Shown: one piece after another, positions 523-37,241 of the stretch | Layout: each line of letters starts with the position of its first letter | Numbering within the stretch: position 1 is the stretch's first letter | Notes under the pieces: model-generated | The model's input: the letters and a program-made list of their open reading frames with translations, nothing else | Told to the model about the DNA's origin: nothing | Databases searched by the model: none | DNA from: Promethearchaeota archaeon | GTDB lineage: Archaea > Asgardarchaeota > Lokiarchaeia > Sigyniarchaeales > Sigyniarchaeaceae | DNA: 38,181 nt | Assembly: GCA_016932935.1 (NCBI GenBank) | Contig: JAFGBX010000068.1 | Location: 1-38,181 of the forward strand | Direction of reading: 5' to 3' | Made by a program: the position numbers and the translations under genes

Positions 523-3500
523 ATGGATGCCCCCCTCCACGAGATGAAGCGCTTGTTCTCCGGCGGCCAGCGGGAGTTCAGGCACGGCAACTTCGAGGCG
601 GCACTCGCGCAGTTCACGGCGGCGTTTGACAAGTTCCGGGACGCCGGCAACTCGGAGGGAATGGCCGATGCGCTGTACCAGGTCGGCATGACGCAGCAGA
701 AGCTCGGGCAGTTCAACGATGCCATCATCAGCTTGAAAGAGGCTCTGGAACTCTACCGCTTCTTGAAGAAACAGGAGCGCGAGGTCATCACGCTTCATGC
801 GGTCGGCTTGCTCCAGGCGGAGGTCGGTGCCGACGAGATCGCGACGAGATACCTGGAAGACGCGCTCGACATCTACAAGGACAAGGATTACAAGCCCGGC
901 ATGGCCGCGATACAGTTCGAGCTCGGCAACACCTGCTTCAAGGCCGGGGAGCATGCGGAGGCCCGGCGCCTCTACGGGGAGGCGTCCGCGATCATCAAGC
1001 AGATCGCGGGCCTGCCCGGGATGGCTAAAGTGAAGTACATGCTCGCGCTCCTCGATTTCTCGGAGGGAGACCTCGACGCGTGCATGGAGAAGCTCGACGA
1101 GGCGAGCGCGCTGTTCGAGAACGACGGCGATTTGAACGGGCGGGCGAGGGCGCTCTCGATCGAGGGGTTGATCTCCTTGAGCAAGGGCGACACGAGGGCG
1201 GCGGAGAACGACTTCAACGAATGCACCCGAATGGTCGCCGAGGGGTACATGAAGGAACCGACCAAGACCGGCGTGCTTGAAAAACAGCAAGAGGTTCAGC
1301 TCTTGCTCTACATGGGCTCGCTCTTGTACCAAGACACCAAGTACAACCTGCCCGACCTCGGCACGACCCTTCACTTGCGTGCGTACAAGTTCTTCGAGGA
1401 CGCCACCGCGCTGGCCGAGCGGATCCAGTACCGGAACGGTATGTGCCAGGGGCTGTTCAACCAGGGCATGATCCTGGTCGACAGGGGTGATCGCGCGAGC
1501 GTCCGGTCGTCCATCGAGAAGTTCTCCAGGGTGCTCGACATCGCGAAGGAGATCAGGAACAACGAGCTGATTGTGAGGAGCTTGCTCTTCCTGGGAATCG
1601 CCCACCGGTACGTGGATAGACACGACCAGGCGCTCGTCTACCTGCAAGACTGCTCGACCATCTCCAAGCGGCTCAAGTACGCGACGCTCGAGGCTCGCGC
1701 GCTGATGGAGAAGGCGCGCATCATGCACGTATTAGGGAAGCTCGATGACGGGCTTGCAACCCTGGAGCAGGCCCGCTCCATCGTTTCGGGGAACTCTGAT
1801 CTCGCCGTGCTGAACTGGGAGATCCTCGTCATCTTTAGCGACCTCTACCAGGGAACGGGGGCGCTGGACATGGCTGCCGAGTCGCTGATCGAGGCGCGGG
1901 AGCAGTGCATGAGACGAAACGACAAGAAGGGGCTCGTCAGGGTGCTGCACGAGATGGCCAGGCTCGACGAGCGGCAGGGCTTCGTCGCCCATGCCATCGC
2001 CTGCACGGCCGAGATCGAGTCAATCCACAAGGCAGCGAACCAGTTCACAGAGATGTCGCGGGCCAGGATCGACCGGGCCCGCATGACCTTCATATCCGGC
2101 GACGTCGACCGCGCAACGAAACTGCTGCACGAGGAGATCGACTTCATACGCGACGCGGGCATCGCCGACGGCGACGCGCTGATCGCGAGTGCGAAGTTCG
2201 TTCTATTCAAAATATTGAAATTTAAGAGTGAGATCATCGAATCGGATGAATTATTCCGTGAGTTGCTTTCATACTTCAGTGAAAACGACAAATTGCTCGA
2301 CATGTTCGAGATGTTCATCGAGATCGCGTACGATGCCGTGGAGAGCGGCAACTTGCTATCGTTGAAGCGCGCGATGGACAAGACGTGGAAGATCCTCGGG
2401 CAACCCAGTGCTGCGGTCGAGCGCCTTGAGCATCTGGTGTACTTCCTCCACGTGTATGGTTTGATGCACCAGCACGAGGGAACGCCGTCGGGCCTCGACC
2501 TCGCCCGGAAATACATGGGAGAATGCCTTTCGATCGTCCAGAAGGCGAACATGGACGATATGAAGGGGGTTATTGTTGCCCAGCTCGCGGACATCGCCCT
2601 CATCGAGGGGAAACAAGACGCGCTCTCCCTTTTCAACGAAGCTATCCGGGACCTCACCGAGGAGGGCAAGCTAGCGGACGCAATTCGCGTCCACGAGCAG
2701 ATAGCGTGGATACGGTATACGAGCGGGAACCTAGACGAGGCGCTCGATCACGCCTTGCGCGCGGCGCGGTTGTTCGAAGACAACGTGATCGCCCGCCCCC
2801 CGCACGGTATGATACAGGACATCAAGGAAAAGTTCCATTACTACACCAAGCGTGTCGACGTACACGCCCTCCTTGCTTGCTTGTACGTCGAGAAGTTCAT
2901 TGAAGCGGGCGATGCCATCGCCCTGGAACGTGCCCTGATCTCCATCGAGTTCCAGAAGATCTACTCGTTCCACCGTTCCTATTATGCAAAACACATGTTC
3001 ACGATGCTCTCTTGCGAGAAGCTGGAGAAGTACCTTGAACAGGACGAGCGGCTCTGCAAGGAGGCCGTGATGAAGCAAAAGACGATCAACTTCTTGACGG
3101 GCTGCAAGGCGTTCCACGAGCGGATCCTGGCAAGTCCCGACGCCCATAAGGAGTTCGTCAAGCGCACGATCGACTCCTTGAAGGCAAAGCTGAAGGAAGA
3201 ACGCGCCGCGCTGGGTGAAATCGTCTCGAAGGTCAAGCAAACACGGGCATACCTCATGGAATGCAAGGATCCCGGTTCGCTCGTGCCTTTCATCGGGTTC
3301 AACGTCGTGAAACAAGCGCAAAAGCAGCTAGAGAAGCACCCGACGGTTGCCGTGCTCGATTATGCCATCCTCCCGGATACATCCAAGGTCGCCATCTTTT
3401 TAATGCACCAGGCGCGCGTCGAGATCTTTTGGAAAGAACTAACACCCGAGTTCTTTGGAACCATCGACCAGCTACGCGAGGCCCGCTCGGCGGAGCGCCA

Positions 3501-4389
3501 GGACGAGGTCCCGTTCATGCACAGGCAGCTAACGGCCTGGCTGTTTCCTATCAAGCTGAAGGATAGACTCGTCGATATGGGCGTGAAATACATCTTCATC
3601 TGCCCTGATGCACGGCTCGGTGATATACTATTTCCGTTGCTTGGTGAAGACAACGCGCTGGGCGTTGCCTTCACGCCCGTGTACGTGCCACACCTGATCG
3701 ATTTCAAGATCTTGATGCGCGACGGCTCACTCGCCCGAGGGTCGGGGAAATTGGACTTCTACCTGCTGTTCCCGGATCCGTCCGACGAAGCATCGGCCGA
3801 GGAGAAGGCCAGCCTAGAGCAGCTCTTCGACCGCCGTGCCGGCGTCGCACGGGGTACGGGTGCTAAACCCTCCCACGTGTCCGTGTCGGCCGGTGCTGCT
3901 GGCTACCAGAGCCTGCAAGATGTTGGGAAGCACGAACCAAACGTCATCCACTACTCCGGAACCAGCTTCCTGCCCGCGTCGTTGCCGTTCAAGGGCCACC
4001 TGAACATGAGCGACCGGTCCTACTTCCTCGAGGACTTCATGGAGCTCGACCTCGCCAACAAGCAAGGATTGCTGTGCATCTCTTCGACCGACGATCTCCC
4101 CCTTGACCTCGGCCAGGCCCTCGTCACGTGGAAGACGCTCGCGCTCAGCAACATCCCCAACATCCTTTACGTTTCGGCTTGCAACAGCTCGTCGGCCATG
4201 TTCATTACCCTTTTGTACGAGCGGTTGCTCGATGGTGAAACGATCGGGGAGGCGTACCACAGCGCCATGCTCCACCTGGGCAGCATGCCGGAGATCCCGC
4301 CCCTCGCGAGGTCAGACCATCTCCTTATCGCCAACCCGTTCTGGCGGCTTGCTGGCGGCGTCCGGGGCGAAAAAAACGCGGATGGTTAG
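523..4389 (+). CDS. TPR-CHAT protein, putative caspase-like protease
   Basis: A 1288-residue protein. Residues ~1-900 are helical repeats of about 40 residues with the TPR pattern (small residues and aromatics alternating, as in the stretch around residues 10-240), forming a long superhelix. Residues ~900-960 are charged and coiled-coil-like. Residues ~980-1280 look like a CHAT domain, the caspase/separase-clan peptidase fold: the probable catalytic His is H1143 (VIHYSGTSF) and the probable catalytic Cys is C1220 (YVSACNSSS), each after a hydrophobic strand. There is no signal peptide or membrane segment, so it is probably cytosolic. TPR plus CHAT is the layout of Csx29 of type III-E CRISPR systems and broadly of eukaryotic separase; no Cas gene is nearby. 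The substrate is unknown. The stop overlaps the convergent next gene by three bases. ATG 523 is used; no Shine-Dalgarno site is seen. Confidence 0.82.
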   Translation: MDAPLHEMKRLFSGGQREFRHGNFEAALAQFTAAFDKFRDAGNSEGMADALYQVGMTQQKLGQFNDAIISLKEALELYRFLKKQEREVITLHAVGLLQAEVGADEIATRYLEDALDIYKDKDYKPGMAAIQFELGNTCFKAGEHAEARRLYGEASAIIKQIAGLPGMAKVKYMLALLDFSEGDLDACMEKLDEASALFENDGDLNGRARALSIEGLISLSKGDTRAAENDFNECTRMVAEGYMKEPTKTGVLEKQQEVQLLLYMGSLLYQDTKYNLPDLGTTLHLRAYKFFEDATALAERIQYRNGMCQGLFNQGMILVDRGDRASVRSSIEKFSRVLDIAKEIRNNELIVRSLLFLGIAHRYVDRHDQALVYLQDCSTISKRLKYATLEARALMEKARIMHVLGKLDDGLATLEQARSIVSGNSDLAVLNWEILVIFSDLYQGTGALDMAAESLIEAREQCMRRNDKKGLVRVLHEMARLDERQGFVAHAIACTAEIESIHKAANQFTEMSRARIDRARMTFISGDVDRATKLLHEEIDFIRDAGIADGDALIASAKFVLFKILKFKSEIIESDELFRELLSYFSENDKLLDMFEMFIEIAYDAVESGNLLSLKRAMDKTWKILGQPSAAVERLEHLVYFLHVYGLMHQHEGTPSGLDLARKYMGECLSIVQKANMDDMKGVIVAQLADIALIEGKQDALSLFNEAIRDLTEEGKLADAIRVHEQIAWIRYTSGNLDEALDHALRAARLFEDNVIARPPHGMIQDIKEKFHYYTKRVDVHALLACLYVEKFIEAGDAIALERALISIEFQKIYSFHRSYYAKHMFTMLSCEKLEKYLEQDERLCKEAVMKQKTINFLTGCKAFHERILASPDAHKEFVKRTIDSLKAKLKEERAALGEIVSKVKQTRAYLMECKDPGSLVPFIGFNVVKQAQKQLEKHPTVAVLDYAILPDTSKVAIFLMHQARVEIFWKELTPEFFGTIDQLREARSAERQDEVPFMHRQLTAWLFPIKLKDRLVDMGVKYIFICPDARLGDILFPLLGEDNALGVAFTPVYVPHLIDFKILMRDGSLARGSGKLDFYLLFPDPSDEASAEEKASLEQLFDRRAGVARGTGAKPSHVSVSAGAAGYQSLQDVGKHEPNVIHYSGTSFLPASLPFKGHLNMSDRSYFLEDFMELDLANKQGLLCISSTDDLPLDLGQALVTWKTLALSNIPNILYVSACNSSSAMFITLLYERLLDGETIGEAYHSAMLHLGSMPEIPPLARSDHLLIANPFWRLAGGVRGEKNADG

Positions 4390-6413
4390 AACTGCTGGCC
4401 TTGCAACGCTGATTGCACCGACGCGAGCCTCTGGTGCAAGACCTGGTTTTCATGGTCGAGGGATATCATCTTCTCGGAGAACAGCTGGTGTGTCGAGAAG
4501 TACACGTTCGCAGCGATTTTTCCGAGCTCGAACTTTGCCTCCAGGTTTCGCATGGTCTCCTTGATGGACACGATGCGCTGCTCGACTGCTTGAAGCTGGC
4601 TCATGAGCATGTGGATTTCCTGGGCCTTCTGAATCCTTGCCTGTATGACCTGCTGTTGGTACGCGTCGACGCTTTGCTGCCGCACCCCGTTGCTCGTTCC
4701 GAGACCCCAGGCAGGAACCGCATCGATCGGGGCCGGAGGCCGACACGCTGGCGAGGCCGGCCCCGGCGCGTAGGAAGGCGCCTGGAAGGGTAAAGCGACT
4801 TGCGGGTAGGCTTGGTTCACCACCTGCTGGCTTTGCCCCTGGCCGCGCCCATAGACCGGGCGGAAGAACCTGGCATCCCCGGTCGAGATCGCCGGGTGCT
4901 TCAGGAACCCTTGGCTCACCGGATCCGGTTGGGCGTTGCCAGGTGGGAAGAAGCTCGCGTCGACGTAGTTGCCGGCCAGGCCATCGAGCGAAAGGCCGCC
5001 AGAGGGGTACATGTTGTTGCCCGTTGCTTGGCTGGTAGTCGGGCCTTGGCGGAGGGTGTCGTTGCCCGCGAGATCCAGGACCTGTTCGAGCTCCATGTCA
5101 ATGTCTGTGGCCGCGGCAGCGCCCGTCGGTTGGCCCCCCATGTATTGGCAAGCCGTAGGCAGCGCGCTTGCATCCCCGGGGTTGAGCAATGCATTGATGT
5201 TCTCCTCGATATAGGCCTTAATTTTAAAGACCGAGTTCACGTCGAACGCTTTGATCCGCTGTATCTTGTCTTGGTCGAGCTTGTTGATCTGCTCGAAATC
5301 TAGGAGCTGTTCGAAGTACTTGGCCAGCACCTGCATCTTCGCCTTGTCCATGTTGAACCTCAAGCCGATGCCCTGGAACTGGAGGGAAAGGCGCTTGAAG
5401 ATCCGGCCGACGACGTCGGTCGACAGGAGCTTGGTAACGGGGAACGAGAAGAGCAGCGCGTCGGTCTTCTTGAGGTACCCCTGGGACTTGATGAACTTGA
5501 ACGACTTGGTCGTGAGTAGCACGTGGCCGTGGCCCTTGTGTTCCTCGTCGTCAGAGTCCAGTTTCACCTCCTCTACGTGAATGACCGGGTATTCCGCCTT
5601 GTCGAGGCCGATGACGCCCTTGTTCATGTACTTGATGAAGAAATCCTTTATCGTGAGCAAGAAGTCGATACGGTCCTTCAGGGATTGCAGCATCTCGAGC
5701 GGCTGGTTGAAGCTCTCTGACACCTGCGCCGTGAACGACATGAAGTCCGACTGGAGCTGGTTGATGTAGGTCTCGAGCACGGCCACGTCTTGGTTGCTCC
5801 ACGCCTTGCCGTCGACGAAGAATCCTTTCTTCGACCTGAGGAACAGGAAGAAGTGGTTTATGCGCTTCATGATACGGCGCTCGATGAGGGCCCCCTCCTC
5901 GATCAACCCGAGCAGTTCTTGCTCCATACCTGGTTCGTGCAGCATGACCGGTAGTTCGAGGCGCAGCTTCATGAGCTTCTGCTTGGCCGTGCTGAGCAAG
6001 CCAGTGAAGCTGGAGAAGTCCTGGAGCACGTTCCGGCTGTCGATGACGATGTTCTTGTACTTCTCTTTCAAGTTCCCCTTGAGCTCGTCGATCTCGGACG
6101 TGTTCGGCGACCGGCACTTCGGGCAGACCATCTTCTCGCGCTGGACGGCCACGATGCGCGCGTTGTCGAGCCCCTCCTCCTTGCATTGCCTGCAGAACAA
6201 CTGCCCGCTCTTCTCGTCGGTGGCGAAGAAATTCAACCCACACTCGGAGCACACCTGGATCTCCTCCCTTTCCTTCACCACGCAAGCATCGCAGAAAATC
6301 GTGTGGCAGTCGTAGCAGTAATGGTTGGCCGAAACGATGTTCCTTTTACAGACCTCGCACTCCATGAAGTTGGGCAAGACATGGTAACGGGGTGTGGCCG
6401 GCTGGCGCATCAT
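4386..6413 (-). CDS. FYVE-like zinc-finger, coiled-coil, PH-like domain protein
   Basis: A 675-residue protein that I cannot assign to a named family. The N-terminus carries six CxxC pairs (C19/22, 33/36, 41/44, 55/58, 74/77, 97/100). The first four have cross-brace spacing, and the stretch NHYCYDCHTIFCDAC resembles the core of FYVE fingers, although the basic residues that bind PI3P there are missing. C74-C100 look like zinc ribbons. Residues ~105-280 are helical and coiled-coil-like. Residues ~288-372 (HVLLTTKSFKFIKS, then FSFPVTKLLSTDVV) have the strand pattern of a PH/GRAM-like domain. A Gly/Gln/Pro-rich linker (~405-585) leads to a C-terminal coiled coil (~590-670). The order finger, coiled coil, other domain recalls TRIM-type scaffolds. 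It converges with the TPR-CHAT gene. The start could also be M17. Confidence 0.6.
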   Translation of the reverse strand: MMRQPATPRYHVLPNFMECEVCKRNIVSANHYCYDCHTIFCDACVVKEREEIQVCSECGLNFFATDEKSGQLFCRQCKEEGLDNARIVAVQREKMVCPKCRSPNTSEIDELKGNLKEKYKNIVIDSRNVLQDFSSFTGLLSTAKQKLMKLRLELPVMLHEPGMEQELLGLIEEGALIERRIMKRINHFFLFLRSKKGFFVDGKAWSNQDVAVLETYINQLQSDFMSFTAQVSESFNQPLEMLQSLKDRIDFLLTIKDFFIKYMNKGVIGLDKAEYPVIHVEEVKLDSDDEEHKGHGHVLLTTKSFKFIKSQGYLKKTDALLFSFPVTKLLSTDVVGRIFKRLSLQFQGIGLRFNMDKAKMQVLAKYFEQLLDFEQINKLDQDKIQRIKAFDVNSVFKIKAYIEENINALLNPGDASALPTACQYMGGQPTGAAAATDIDMELEQVLDLAGNDTLRQGPTTSQATGNNMYPSGGLSLDGLAGNYVDASFFPPGNAQPDPVSQGFLKHPAISTGDARFFRPVYGRGQGQSQQVVNQAYPQVALPFQAPSYAPGPASPACRPPAPIDAVPAWGLGTSNGVRQQSVDAYQQQVIQARIQKAQEIHMLMSQLQAVEQRIVSIKETMRNLEAKFELGKIAANVYFSTHQLFSEKMISLDHENQVLHQRLASVQSALQGQQF

Positions 6414-28280: not shown

Positions 28281-29171
28281 ATGGTGGAGCGGATGCCCGT
28301 GGAGAAGCAAGTCAATCCCCTGTACAAGGAGAAGGTTCACGTCGCGTTCTTGGGGTGGGAGATAGACAGGATAGTCCGCCCGGTGCTCGAGATGCGGGGG
28401 AACCGGCTCATCCTCATCTGCTTTCCGAAGGAAACGGAGGGGGCATGGGATTACCTCGGTGAGGTCAAGCGCCAGCTCGATCAAAAGGGAATCCCAGTCG
28501 AGGTCGTCCAGGAATCCCTGTACGAGCTCGTCGACCTGCTCTCGGTTCTGAACAAGGTGTTCCAGGTCGAGCGTCTGAAGGGTAACGAGATCCTCATCAA
28601 CGTGAGCGCGGGGACCAAGATTTCCGCCTGCGCGTCGACGATCGCGGCGATGGCAGCCAAGGACGTGACCGCCTACTACGTCCACATGGAAAAGTACTTC
28701 CCGAAGGACAACCCGGCCTTCAAGAAGGACGACCCGCTGCAGCCGCTCACGTGGGGCTTTAAGGGCACGACGGCGCTGCCAGAGTGCCAGATCATGCTGC
28801 CAGATCAGAAATACATCAAGACCCTGCACGCCATCAAGAAGATGAACGACAAGGGCCACCCGAAGGTCTACATCAAGGACTTGATAGAGAGTTTGAAGGA
28901 AAGAAGCGTCATCAACGTGAAGCCAAACAAGGAGCCGCGGAAGGAGACGAGTTCGGAGTACATGGCCATCAAGGCGATCATGGAGCGGCTCGTCCAATGG
29001 AACTACCTGACGATCGCGCCGAAGAAGCGGAACCGGTTCGTCGAGCTCACCGAAAAGGGCCGGAACGCCATCGACATGTACCTCAGCTTCGACCTCGATG
29101 AGGCGGACTTGAAGGCAAGCAAGGGCGAGCCGATCGTGGAGTGGATAGGCTTGCTGAAGAATCGGGAATGA
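28281..29171 (+). CDS. CARF-like domain plus winged helix (DUF6293/HFX_2341 type)
   Basis: A 296-residue protein. Residues ~15-140 form a Rossmann-like domain: VHVAFLGWEIDRIVRP, RLILICFPKE, and ILINVSAGTKISACASTIAAM with Asn107, the conserved N(V)xxGTK motif of CARF domains, which bind cyclic or linear nucleotides. Residues ~165-275 are a winged helix that ends with FVELTEKGRNAIDMYL. This combination matches the DUF6293 family of archaeal regulators. CARF proteins usually accompany CRISPR-Cas, but no cas gene or array is in the window, so a nucleotide-sensing transcription factor is more likely. It is followed by the convergent FwdB-like gene after nine bases. Confidence 0.8.
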   Translation: MVERMPVEKQVNPLYKEKVHVAFLGWEIDRIVRPVLEMRGNRLILICFPKETEGAWDYLGEVKRQLDQKGIPVEVVQESLYELVDLLSVLNKVFQVERLKGNEILINVSAGTKISACASTIAAMAAKDVTAYYVHMEKYFPKDNPAFKKDDPLQPLTWGFKGTTALPECQIMLPDQKYIKTLHAIKKMNDKGHPKVYIKDLIESLKERSVINVKPNKEPRKETSSEYMAIKAIMERLVQWNYLTIAPKKRNRFVELTEKGRNAIDMYLSFDLDEADLKASKGEPIVEWIGLLKNRE

Positions 29172-35024: not shown

Positions 35025-37241
35025 ATGCAAGCCCAAGGCGGCATCGAGGCATCCCGAGCGAACCAGTTTGTTCTGCTCGAGGCACTGAAGTCGGGACGTC
35101 TGGCCATCGAGGTCGAGAAGGCCGCCCTGGGAAGCCTCCAGTCCGCGTCGATCTCGGGGATCAAGGTGCCCCAGAAGCACCTCGATTACCTCGCGAGCAA
35201 AGCGGTCGCGAACCAAGGGGATATCGGTGCAAACGAGTTCCTGGAAGGTTTAAACTTGCAAGGTCTCGATGCCACCGCATTGCTCTCCAATAACGCTGCA
35301 ATCGAGGCTCTATTCTACGTGTCTTTGCTCTCGAAGGCCGGCGTCGTCAAATTCAAGGAGACCGGCCCCGAGCTCAAGGGCTTCAAGGCCGCCGACCGCC
35401 AAGCCTTCGCAGCGAGCATGGCCCGCCTCAACGACCCGTTCATGGCGCCGATCAAGGCGTTCATCAGCGACACGGGCAAGGCAATGCAAGACGCGCGCAT
35501 CGTCCGTTACCCCGCGATCAAGGAGGATCTGGCCGCGCGGGCGGCGTCCCACGCGGAGCAACTCGACAGGGAGTACGCCATGGCCCAGCACAACATCCGG
35601 TTCACCGGAATCATCCCGGCGCGGGACGGGCTGGAATCCATTATGGCAGCCTTCCAGGCCGCGCGGCAAGCCATCAAGGGCATCAACGACCGCCTTGCGG
35701 CCCCAACGGCCGGGATCCAATGCATCTCCCGCGAGTTCATGGACGAGCAGCTCAAGCTGGTCGATCCGGTCGTCCACGTGGACTCGACGAGGCTCGATGA
35801 CCTGTCGCCGCGGTGCGCCGGCATGTTCAAGGATCGCCCCGCGACCAGGTTCAATGAGGGATACACGGCGCTGATGGCGATCATCGGCTCCACGCCGGAT
35901 TGCAGCCAGGAACTCGCCGCGAGCCTCGTGCTCTACTTCATCGAGACCAAGCAGTTCGCCGTGGAGCTGAAGGAGATAGGGAACAAGGAACGGAAGGAGA
36001 TCCGGAGAAAAATCAACCAGCTTGTCAAGGAAGAGCTCGCCCGCCACCTTGCGGCCACCTGGCCCGGCGACGCGGGCGCCTTCCTGGCCGGGGTCGACAA
36101 GGACGAGAAGCTGTCCGCCCTCCTCCCGAAAGTCCTCAAGCACGCGCTCGAGCACGAGGAGCGCGAGCTCATGACGTTCACGGCGAAGAACGACATCGAG
36201 GGCGGGGAGGCCAAGCTCGCGGCGGCCGTGGCGGCGTACAAGGGGAAGCTGCAAGCCGTCGCGGCGTGGTGCGACGAGATGCAGGGGCTACTCATCGGCG
36301 ACTACGCGACGGCGGTCAACCCCCTCAAGGAATCCCTAGAGCACCAGAACCAGGAGATCGAGCGTTTCCGCTCGAAGTTGGAGTTCTTCTTCCAGGAGAC
36401 CAAGTCGCAAGAGGACAAGGTCAAGATCCGCGACGATGTCAAGAGGATCCTTGGCGAGATCGACGTGCTCGTGAATAGATTCGAGGCCGGCATGGGCTTG
36501 GTGTTGAACAAGACACCGCTCGACCTGGAACAGCTAGGGAAGGGCCTGGCTCAATTCAAGACACAATACCAGGGTTTGCTCAACCAACTAAATGAGATGT
36601 TGAACCGTTTCGATGCATTCAAGCTGCTGAACATCGTGGAGGAGATAAAGCAGTTCTTCGAGAAGCGGAACGAGAAGGTGAACCTCGTCGCGAACATGGT
36701 GCTCGTCGACCTACAGGAGAACGTGGTGCGCATCACGCGGTCGATGGCCGAGCTGTCGGGGATCTTGAAGGAGGGCAAGGGCTTCTCTCTCGAGCGCGGC
36801 AAGCTCGGCGACGCGGCCTTCGACGAGAAGGTCGCCGGCATCGCGTCGGCCATCGACGGTGCCATGACCGAGGAGGTCGTCGAGGACGAGTTCATCACGA
36901 AGAAACGCATCTCGCTCATCGAGGAGCGCCTCAGCGAGCTCGAGACGATCAAGAAGAACCTGGTGGACAAGCGGGACAAGCTACTCTTCAGGCTGGTGAA
37001 GGCCGAGGACAAGGGCAAGTTCCTCGAGGACCGGAAGGTCGGCGAGTGCATCATCTGCTACGAGCCCATCACGACCCTTGACGAGGAGATCGTTGTCTGC
37101 CCACACTGCGGCCGCCTGGGTCACTACCTGTGCCTTGCATACTGGTACGAGAAGTACAGCATCTGCCCGGTCTGCCACGGGAAGCTGACCCGCCCGGAGG
37201 ACGCGGTTCCCGATTTCACCGGCGGGGCGTACAGCCCGTGA
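35025..37241 (+). CDS. Long coiled-coil protein with C-terminal RING-like zinc finger
   Basis: A 738-residue protein. Residues ~1-90 are compact and hydrophobic; from ~95 to ~650 it is mainly charged helix and coiled coil (strong at ~430-560 and ~620-665). The C-terminus (675-717) is C675xxC678, C692xxC695, H700, C703, C714xxC717, the C4HC3 order of RING variant or PHD fingers (GECIICYEP, VCPHCGRLGHYLC, CPVC). The sequence between the two C pairs looks like a RING loop. Eukaryotic proteins of this shape are often ubiquitin ligases, and Asgard archaea have RING-like proteins and ubiquitin-system parts; no ubiquitin, E1 or E2 gene is in the window. Function is unknown. It converges with the asparaginase gene, 12 bases apart. 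Confidence 0.7.
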   Translation: MQAQGGIEASRANQFVLLEALKSGRLAIEVEKAALGSLQSASISGIKVPQKHLDYLASKAVANQGDIGANEFLEGLNLQGLDATALLSNNAAIEALFYVSLLSKAGVVKFKETGPELKGFKAADRQAFAASMARLNDPFMAPIKAFISDTGKAMQDARIVRYPAIKEDLAARAASHAEQLDREYAMAQHNIRFTGIIPARDGLESIMAAFQAARQAIKGINDRLAAPTAGIQCISREFMDEQLKLVDPVVHVDSTRLDDLSPRCAGMFKDRPATRFNEGYTALMAIIGSTPDCSQELAASLVLYFIETKQFAVELKEIGNKERKEIRRKINQLVKEELARHLAATWPGDAGAFLAGVDKDEKLSALLPKVLKHALEHEERELMTFTAKNDIEGGEAKLAAAVAAYKGKLQAVAAWCDEMQGLLIGDYATAVNPLKESLEHQNQEIERFRSKLEFFFQETKSQEDKVKIRDDVKRILGEIDVLVNRFEAGMGLVLNKTPLDLEQLGKGLAQFKTQYQGLLNQLNEMLNRFDAFKLLNIVEEIKQFFEKRNEKVNLVANMVLVDLQENVVRITRSMAELSGILKEGKGFSLERGKLGDAAFDEKVAGIASAIDGAMTEEVVEDEFITKKRISLIEERLSELETIKKNLVDKRDKLLFRLVKAEDKGKFLEDRKVGECIICYEPITTLDEEIVVCPHCGRLGHYLCLAYWYEKYSICPVCHGKLTRPEDAVPDFTGGAYSP

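Follow-up and report, generated by a model that had tools for sequence, protein, structure and literature searches.

Proteins in which a TPR arm leads into a CHAT fold are known from type III-E CRISPR systems (Craspase), where Csx29/TPR-CHAT, of ∼720–820 amino acids, carries the catalytic pair H585/C627. Separase is built in a comparable way, with a long helical superhelix before its caspase-like domain, and keeps a His-Cys dyad (H2003/C2029 in the human protein). In CHAT peptidases the catalytic His is the second His of the HFxGH motif. Caspase-fold homologs that have lost the His-Cys dyad and are yet retained have been described in bacteria as pseudo-orthocaspases (PMC6426788); these belong to the p20 orthocaspase family and carry Tyr/Ser replacements, and the abstract of that paper mentions neither a TPR arm nor an ESCRT neighbor.

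Here we describe a TPR-CHAT protein of an Asgard archaeon of the family Sigynarchaeaceae, encoded on a 38,181-nucleotide stretch of DNA (contig JAFGBX010000068.1; hereafter the window). At 1288 amino acids it is considerably longer than Csx29, and it appears to have the Csx29/separase architecture yet to be without the His-Cys dyad that defines both. In the part of the literature that we searched, we found no paper joining the CHAT domain and Asgard archaea.

Architecture and predicted fold

The open reading frame of the first-pass annotation and its TPR array were both borne out (Table 1). The TPR part matches Pfam TPR_12 (1.6e-32) and TPR_MalT (8.7e-15), residues 697–754 are SNAP-like in Pfam, and profile searches against known structures return LGN/Pins. 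Full-length orthologs with 71, 53, and 35% identity are present in three other genomes (G001, G002, and G004, respectively; the window's own genome is G000). Because differences from the 71% ortholog at codon positions 1/2/3 amount to 0.20/0.11/0.42 in the TPR part and 0.29/0.18/0.43 in the CHAT part, the whole gene is under purifying selection, somewhat weaker in the CHAT part.

Table 1. Positions of the features discussed (window coordinates, or locus and coordinates where a locus is named)
Feature	Coordinates	Strand	Basis or remark
TPR-pseudo-CHAT gene	523-4389	+	ORF, 1288 aa; full-length orthologs
TPR superhelix	550-2802 (residues ~10-760)	+	Pfam TPR matches and TPR-structure profile matches
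Predicted CHAT-fold domain, catalytically degenerate	3310-4362 (residues 930-1280)	+	hhalign, AF2, Foldseek
His1143, first His of HFxGH, structural	3949-3951	+	inside beta-strand 1139-1146
Thr1147, at the catalytic His position	3961-3963	+	26-CHAT alignment and Csx29 alignment
Cys1185, invariant	4075-4077	+	in strand 1183-1188; a gap is needed to align it with the nucleophile
Cys1220, not the nucleophile	4180-4182	+	just after strand 1213-1218
Probable ESCRT-I component of the Znr_PH_CC_SB type, 675 aa	4386-6413	-	27-member alignment, Vps23 matches
Three zinc ribbons of the neighbor (residues 19-100, 12 Cys)	6114-6359	-	Cys conservation
Helical C terminus of the neighbor, Vps23 core/steadiness box-like (residues 597-661)	4431-4625	-	profile matches
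Actin and dead-CHAT block	L074:3823-9509; L075:6952-12340; L076:10-6082; L077:3422-9160		

A Pfam search for CHAT (PF12770), proposed as a check on the domain, gave a divided result: the window's protein scores 18.8 bits (E = 0.0012), below the curated cut-off of 24, and two of its orthologs lie above it at 28.9 and 24.3 bits. A six-frame CHAT search of the window's genome at E ≤ 0.001 missed the gene. Further comparisons support the Csx29/separase fold that had been proposed. With hhalign, the profile of the four orthologs matches 12 canonical Asgard CHATs at 98.3% probability (E = 1.8e-14), and a PDB search with a 26-member CHAT profile, led by the window's protein and also taking in canonical CHATs, returns Csx29/TPR-CHAT (1.3e-9). 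An AF2 model of residues 930–1280 has a pLDDT of 91 and a pTM of 0.91, with remote CHATs in its input alignment that may help the fold. In Foldseek searches of the PDB with this model, Csx29/TPR-CHAT comes first (best 1.3e-9, query TM ∼0.6–0.7), followed by separase (5.4e-7), a ciliary central-pair protein, and gingipain, with caspase matching weakly; Csx29 is thus the best match of the window's protein both by structure and by profile. An earlier model, for which only the four orthologs served as input, had low confidence (pLDDT 53) and was replaced by the present one; Csx29 likewise ranked first with it. Because the hhalign and PDB profile results, the confident model, and the Foldseek matches agree, the assignment stands, and the C-terminal ∼350 residues are predicted to form a CHAT fold of the caspase/separase type.

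The ciliary match concerns a C1 central-pair protein (7sqc, 7n6g), and suggests a separase-like fold in the axoneme, as judged from the Foldseek comparison.

The catalytic positions

The first-pass annotation had read His1143 and Cys1220 as an intact catalytic dyad and the protein as a switchable protease. Both residues are indeed present as letters of the sequence, yet neither is a catalytic residue. The motif that corresponds to HFxGH reads H1143-Y-S-G-T1147, so that His1143 is its first His. In the alignment of 26 CHATs, active-type and degenerate alike, the His1143 column holds His throughout, apart from Tyr in two, and in the PDB profile alignment one Csx29 protein has Thr there. The catalytic His column is instead that of Thr1147, which is His in 16 canonical CHATs and Thr, Thr, Thr, and Leu in the four orthologs. 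The same column aligns in the PDB profile alignment with H585 of Csx29 (residue 539 of 8d9f, with an offset of 46 to full-length numbering), so that the catalytic position of Csx29 is Thr or Leu in the Asgard family. By alignment, the catalytic His expected of an active CHAT peptidase or separase is thus missing in all four orthologs.

Cys1220 lies in the motif VSAC, which resembles the CHAT nucleophile motif yet stands one strand further along, one alignment column after the conserved CHAT Trp, and its position is occupied by Arg, Lys, and Arg in the three orthologs. A check of the geometry of the proposed pair in a predicted structure had been suggested, and the strand positions in the model speak against a CHAT site: the strands run in the order 1139–1146, with His1143 inside, 1183–1188, and 1213–1218, with Cys1220 following the last of these. 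In the topology of the caspase fold, one strand stands between the strands bearing the two residues. The CHAT and Csx29 alignments, the three orthologs, and the strand positions in the model together lead us to reject a His1143-Cys1220 dyad.

The case for an active, switchable caspase-like protease, whether with this dyad or another pair, has to be made from two observations: the fold is closest to active Csx29 and separase in Foldseek, and all four orthologs keep Cys1185, which two methods align with the nucleophile. Both hhalign and MAFFT achieve that alignment only by means of a strand gap of four to five residues, and in the model Cys1185 lies within the nucleophile strand, not at the strand end. 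The invariance of Cys1185 suggests that part of the active site may remain; even with Cys1185 as nucleophile, however, the catalytic His would be gone. Because Thr1147 aligns with H585 and Cys1220 is not the nucleophile, we regard a protease of the proposed kind as very unlikely. One might also imagine that the site has shifted rather than died, with invariant His1143 and invariant Cys1185 making up a His-Cys pair in an ESCRT-linked enzyme; the strands of these residues are neighbors in the CHAT fold, and each residue lies a few positions before its strand end. We give this version hardly any credence. The active-site data are most simply read as those of a maintained pseudoprotease.

The probable ESCRT locus and the range of the family

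The stop codon of the TPR-CHAT gene overlaps that of a convergent gene by 4 nucleotides, tail-to-tail, as previously noted, and the comparison of gene neighborhoods proposed at that time shows that the two genes are adjacent in all four genomes that carry the TPR-CHAT gene, down to 35% identity. The stops overlap in the window and in G001, and ∼50 and ∼250 nucleotides separate the genes in G002 and G004, respectively. The description of the neighbor as a zinc-finger/PH-like protein kept beside the TPR-CHAT gene holds and can be made more specific. Its zinc ribbons consist of six CxxC pairs, with 11 of the 12 Cys residues invariant in 27 sequences and the other (C19) conserved in at least 90%. 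A PH-like region is recognized in some members of this set (bPH_3 in 4 of 27 and GRAM in 2 of 27, best 4e-7), the window's own member being unscored. Vps23_core is found in 13 of the 27 (best 0.0015), with the window's member alone again unscored, and in a PDB profile search the C terminus matches yeast Vps23 structures weakly (E of 0.02–0.19). Makarova et al. (2024, PMC10936438) described Znr_PH_CC_SB (cog.011556), with zinc ribbons, a PH domain, and a steadiness box, as a likely Asgard ESCRT-I component; the text of that paper has no mention of CHAT or caspase. The neighbor shares with it the three zinc ribbons and the Vps23-core-like C terminus, probably also the PH-like region, and is on this evidence a probable ESCRT-I subunit of the Znr_PH_CC_SB type. 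This likeness is the neighbor's and not that of the TPR-CHAT protein.

The neighbor had also been put forward as a possible substrate of the presumed protease. Of 59 genomes in the order, 55 have its gene, generally as a single copy, and nearly all of these are without the TPR-CHAT protein; because of this distribution we reject a role as dedicated substrate.

On the other flank of the TPR-CHAT gene, G002 and G004, the two deepest members, carry a divergent Snf7 (ESCRT-III) gene, which reaches 67.9 bits in Pfam in G002, and G001 has an IS66 transposase at this place. Upstream of the gene, the window has 522 nucleotides before the contig stops, and the last part of a Pro/Ala-rich ORF lies in them. 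A Snf7 gene adjoining the TPR-CHAT gene in the window was discarded: tblastn was negative, and the closest Snf7 in the genome is on another contig (C226). In other families Snf7 stands directly by the neighbor gene at L072, as it also does at L078, and at L069 and L073 one methionine-synthase-like gene lies between the two; the slot taken by the TPR-CHAT gene is in related families either empty or filled by the methionine-synthase-like gene. Because Snf7 and the ESCRT-I-like gene flank the gene or its slot across genomes, the TPR-pseudo-CHAT gene appears, from gene order, to sit in an ESCRT locus.

When 83 genomes of the class were searched with a profile made from the C-terminal half, four full members came up, all in the one family, of which four of five genomes carry the gene; two further weak matches are other CHAT proteins, and a scan of GTDB contigs returned the same three relatives. 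The TPR proteins of ∼1350 amino acids in other families were rejected as orthologs: the TPR part alone matches, and there is no CHAT match. Among the 83 genomes, the family thus appears confined to Sigynarchaeaceae. In G003, the one remaining genome of Sigynarchaeaceae, the TPR-CHAT gene was not found; this bin is 9% contaminated, has a deviant neighbor gene, and is probably chimeric or misassigned. This bin, placed in the same genus, has a 26%-identical neighbor gene beside Snf7 (L078, G003:C290, 4018–6349). The record of the 35%-identical relative (WJJB01000489.1, L053/L056) is labeled Bathyarchaeota and its genome is placed in the window's Asgard family; the label looks wrong.

The claim that there is no CRISPR locus agrees with our scan, in which no cas effector was recognized in the window. 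No RAMP proteins were found in the window's genome (82% complete), hence no Cas7-11 and no Csx29-like context at that completeness, and the window has no closely spaced direct repeats of at least 22 bases; on these two grounds we set a CRISPR link aside. A part in antiviral conflict, as sensor or decoy, deserves separate mention, as TPR and CHAT modules occur widely in conflict systems, where many TPR/NTPase-CHAT proteins act as sensors or decoys. PADLOC returns a generic TPR match to the protein. Against this, no defense gene came up in the Pfam scans of genes of the window, no RAMP protein occurs in the genome and no effector lies beside the gene, and the gene is conserved together with housekeeping genes. 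We consider such a role improbable, and an active protease, given the Thr or Leu at its catalytic His position, the Arg/Lys/Arg at Cys1220, and the placement of His1143 inside a strand and Cys1220 after the strand two along, about as improbable.

Two other genes of the window may be recorded here. Some 24 kb from the TPR-CHAT gene, 28281–29171 (+) encodes a CARF-like HFX_2341/DUF6293 regulator with weak matches to Csa3 and Cas_APE2256, around which no cas genes were recognized. The 738-amino acid product of 35025–37241 (+) resembles a RING finger at its C terminus (zf-RING_2, 24.9 bits against a cut-off of 27.3) and is a possible ubiquitin-ligase-like protein.

Possible function

We infer that the protein would use its TPR arm and dead CHAT domain to bind partner proteins without cutting them. 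The most likely partners would be Asgard ESCRT parts, namely the neighbor, as probable ESCRT-I, and Snf7, as ESCRT-III, and the protein would then serve as an accessory scaffold or adaptor in membrane remodeling in Sigynarchaeaceae. Taken as one statement, a pseudoprotease specific to this family that acts as a scaffold or adaptor binding ESCRT proteins, this has in our judgment an even chance of being correct. The ESCRT-linked role is a best guess that rests on the synteny of convergent genes, and it is the weaker of the two inferences, given the convergent orientation of the genes and the unrelated genes that occupy the slot in other genomes. The neighbor is a separate transcript, so that adjacency is weak functional evidence; to our knowledge, the Asgard protein has no securin-like partner.

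The view that the protein is a pseudoprotease scaffold unconnected with ESCRT, its gene order simply inherited in a small clade, is accordingly a serious competitor, to which we give roughly one chance in three. The small number of known members, four from related genomes, counts against an ESCRT scaffold, as do the convergent arrangement with no common promoter, the IS66 transposase that G001 has in place of the Snf7 of G002 and G004, and the variable slot outside Sigynarchaeaceae. What this alternative does not readily accommodate is that the pair has been kept in four genomes despite divergence to 35% identity and that a divergent Snf7 flanks the gene in the two deepest members.

Related families have a protein of ∼840–870 amino acids with a degenerate CHAT, in which HFVGN and SQ stand for the GH and AC motifs; its gene immediately follows one of the actin family (Pfam Actin, 6e-51 in L077). 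In other families of the order it belongs to a conserved five-gene block of an AbrB/ACT-like gene, a gene for ∼250 amino acids, the actin-family gene, the gene for the dead CHAT of ∼850 amino acids, and a gene for ∼178 amino acids. A second, widespread dead CHAT is thus predicted in an actin-gene block.

If the reading of the Sigynarchaeaceae protein as an ESCRT-binding pseudoprotease is true, a lineage-specific degenerate separase-like protein whose gene is kept next to those for ESCRT-I and ESCRT-III would add a new accessory part, and, together with the dead CHAT of the actin block, it would suggest that the caspase/separase fold serves in Asgard archaea as scaffolding for both cytoskeletal and membrane systems.
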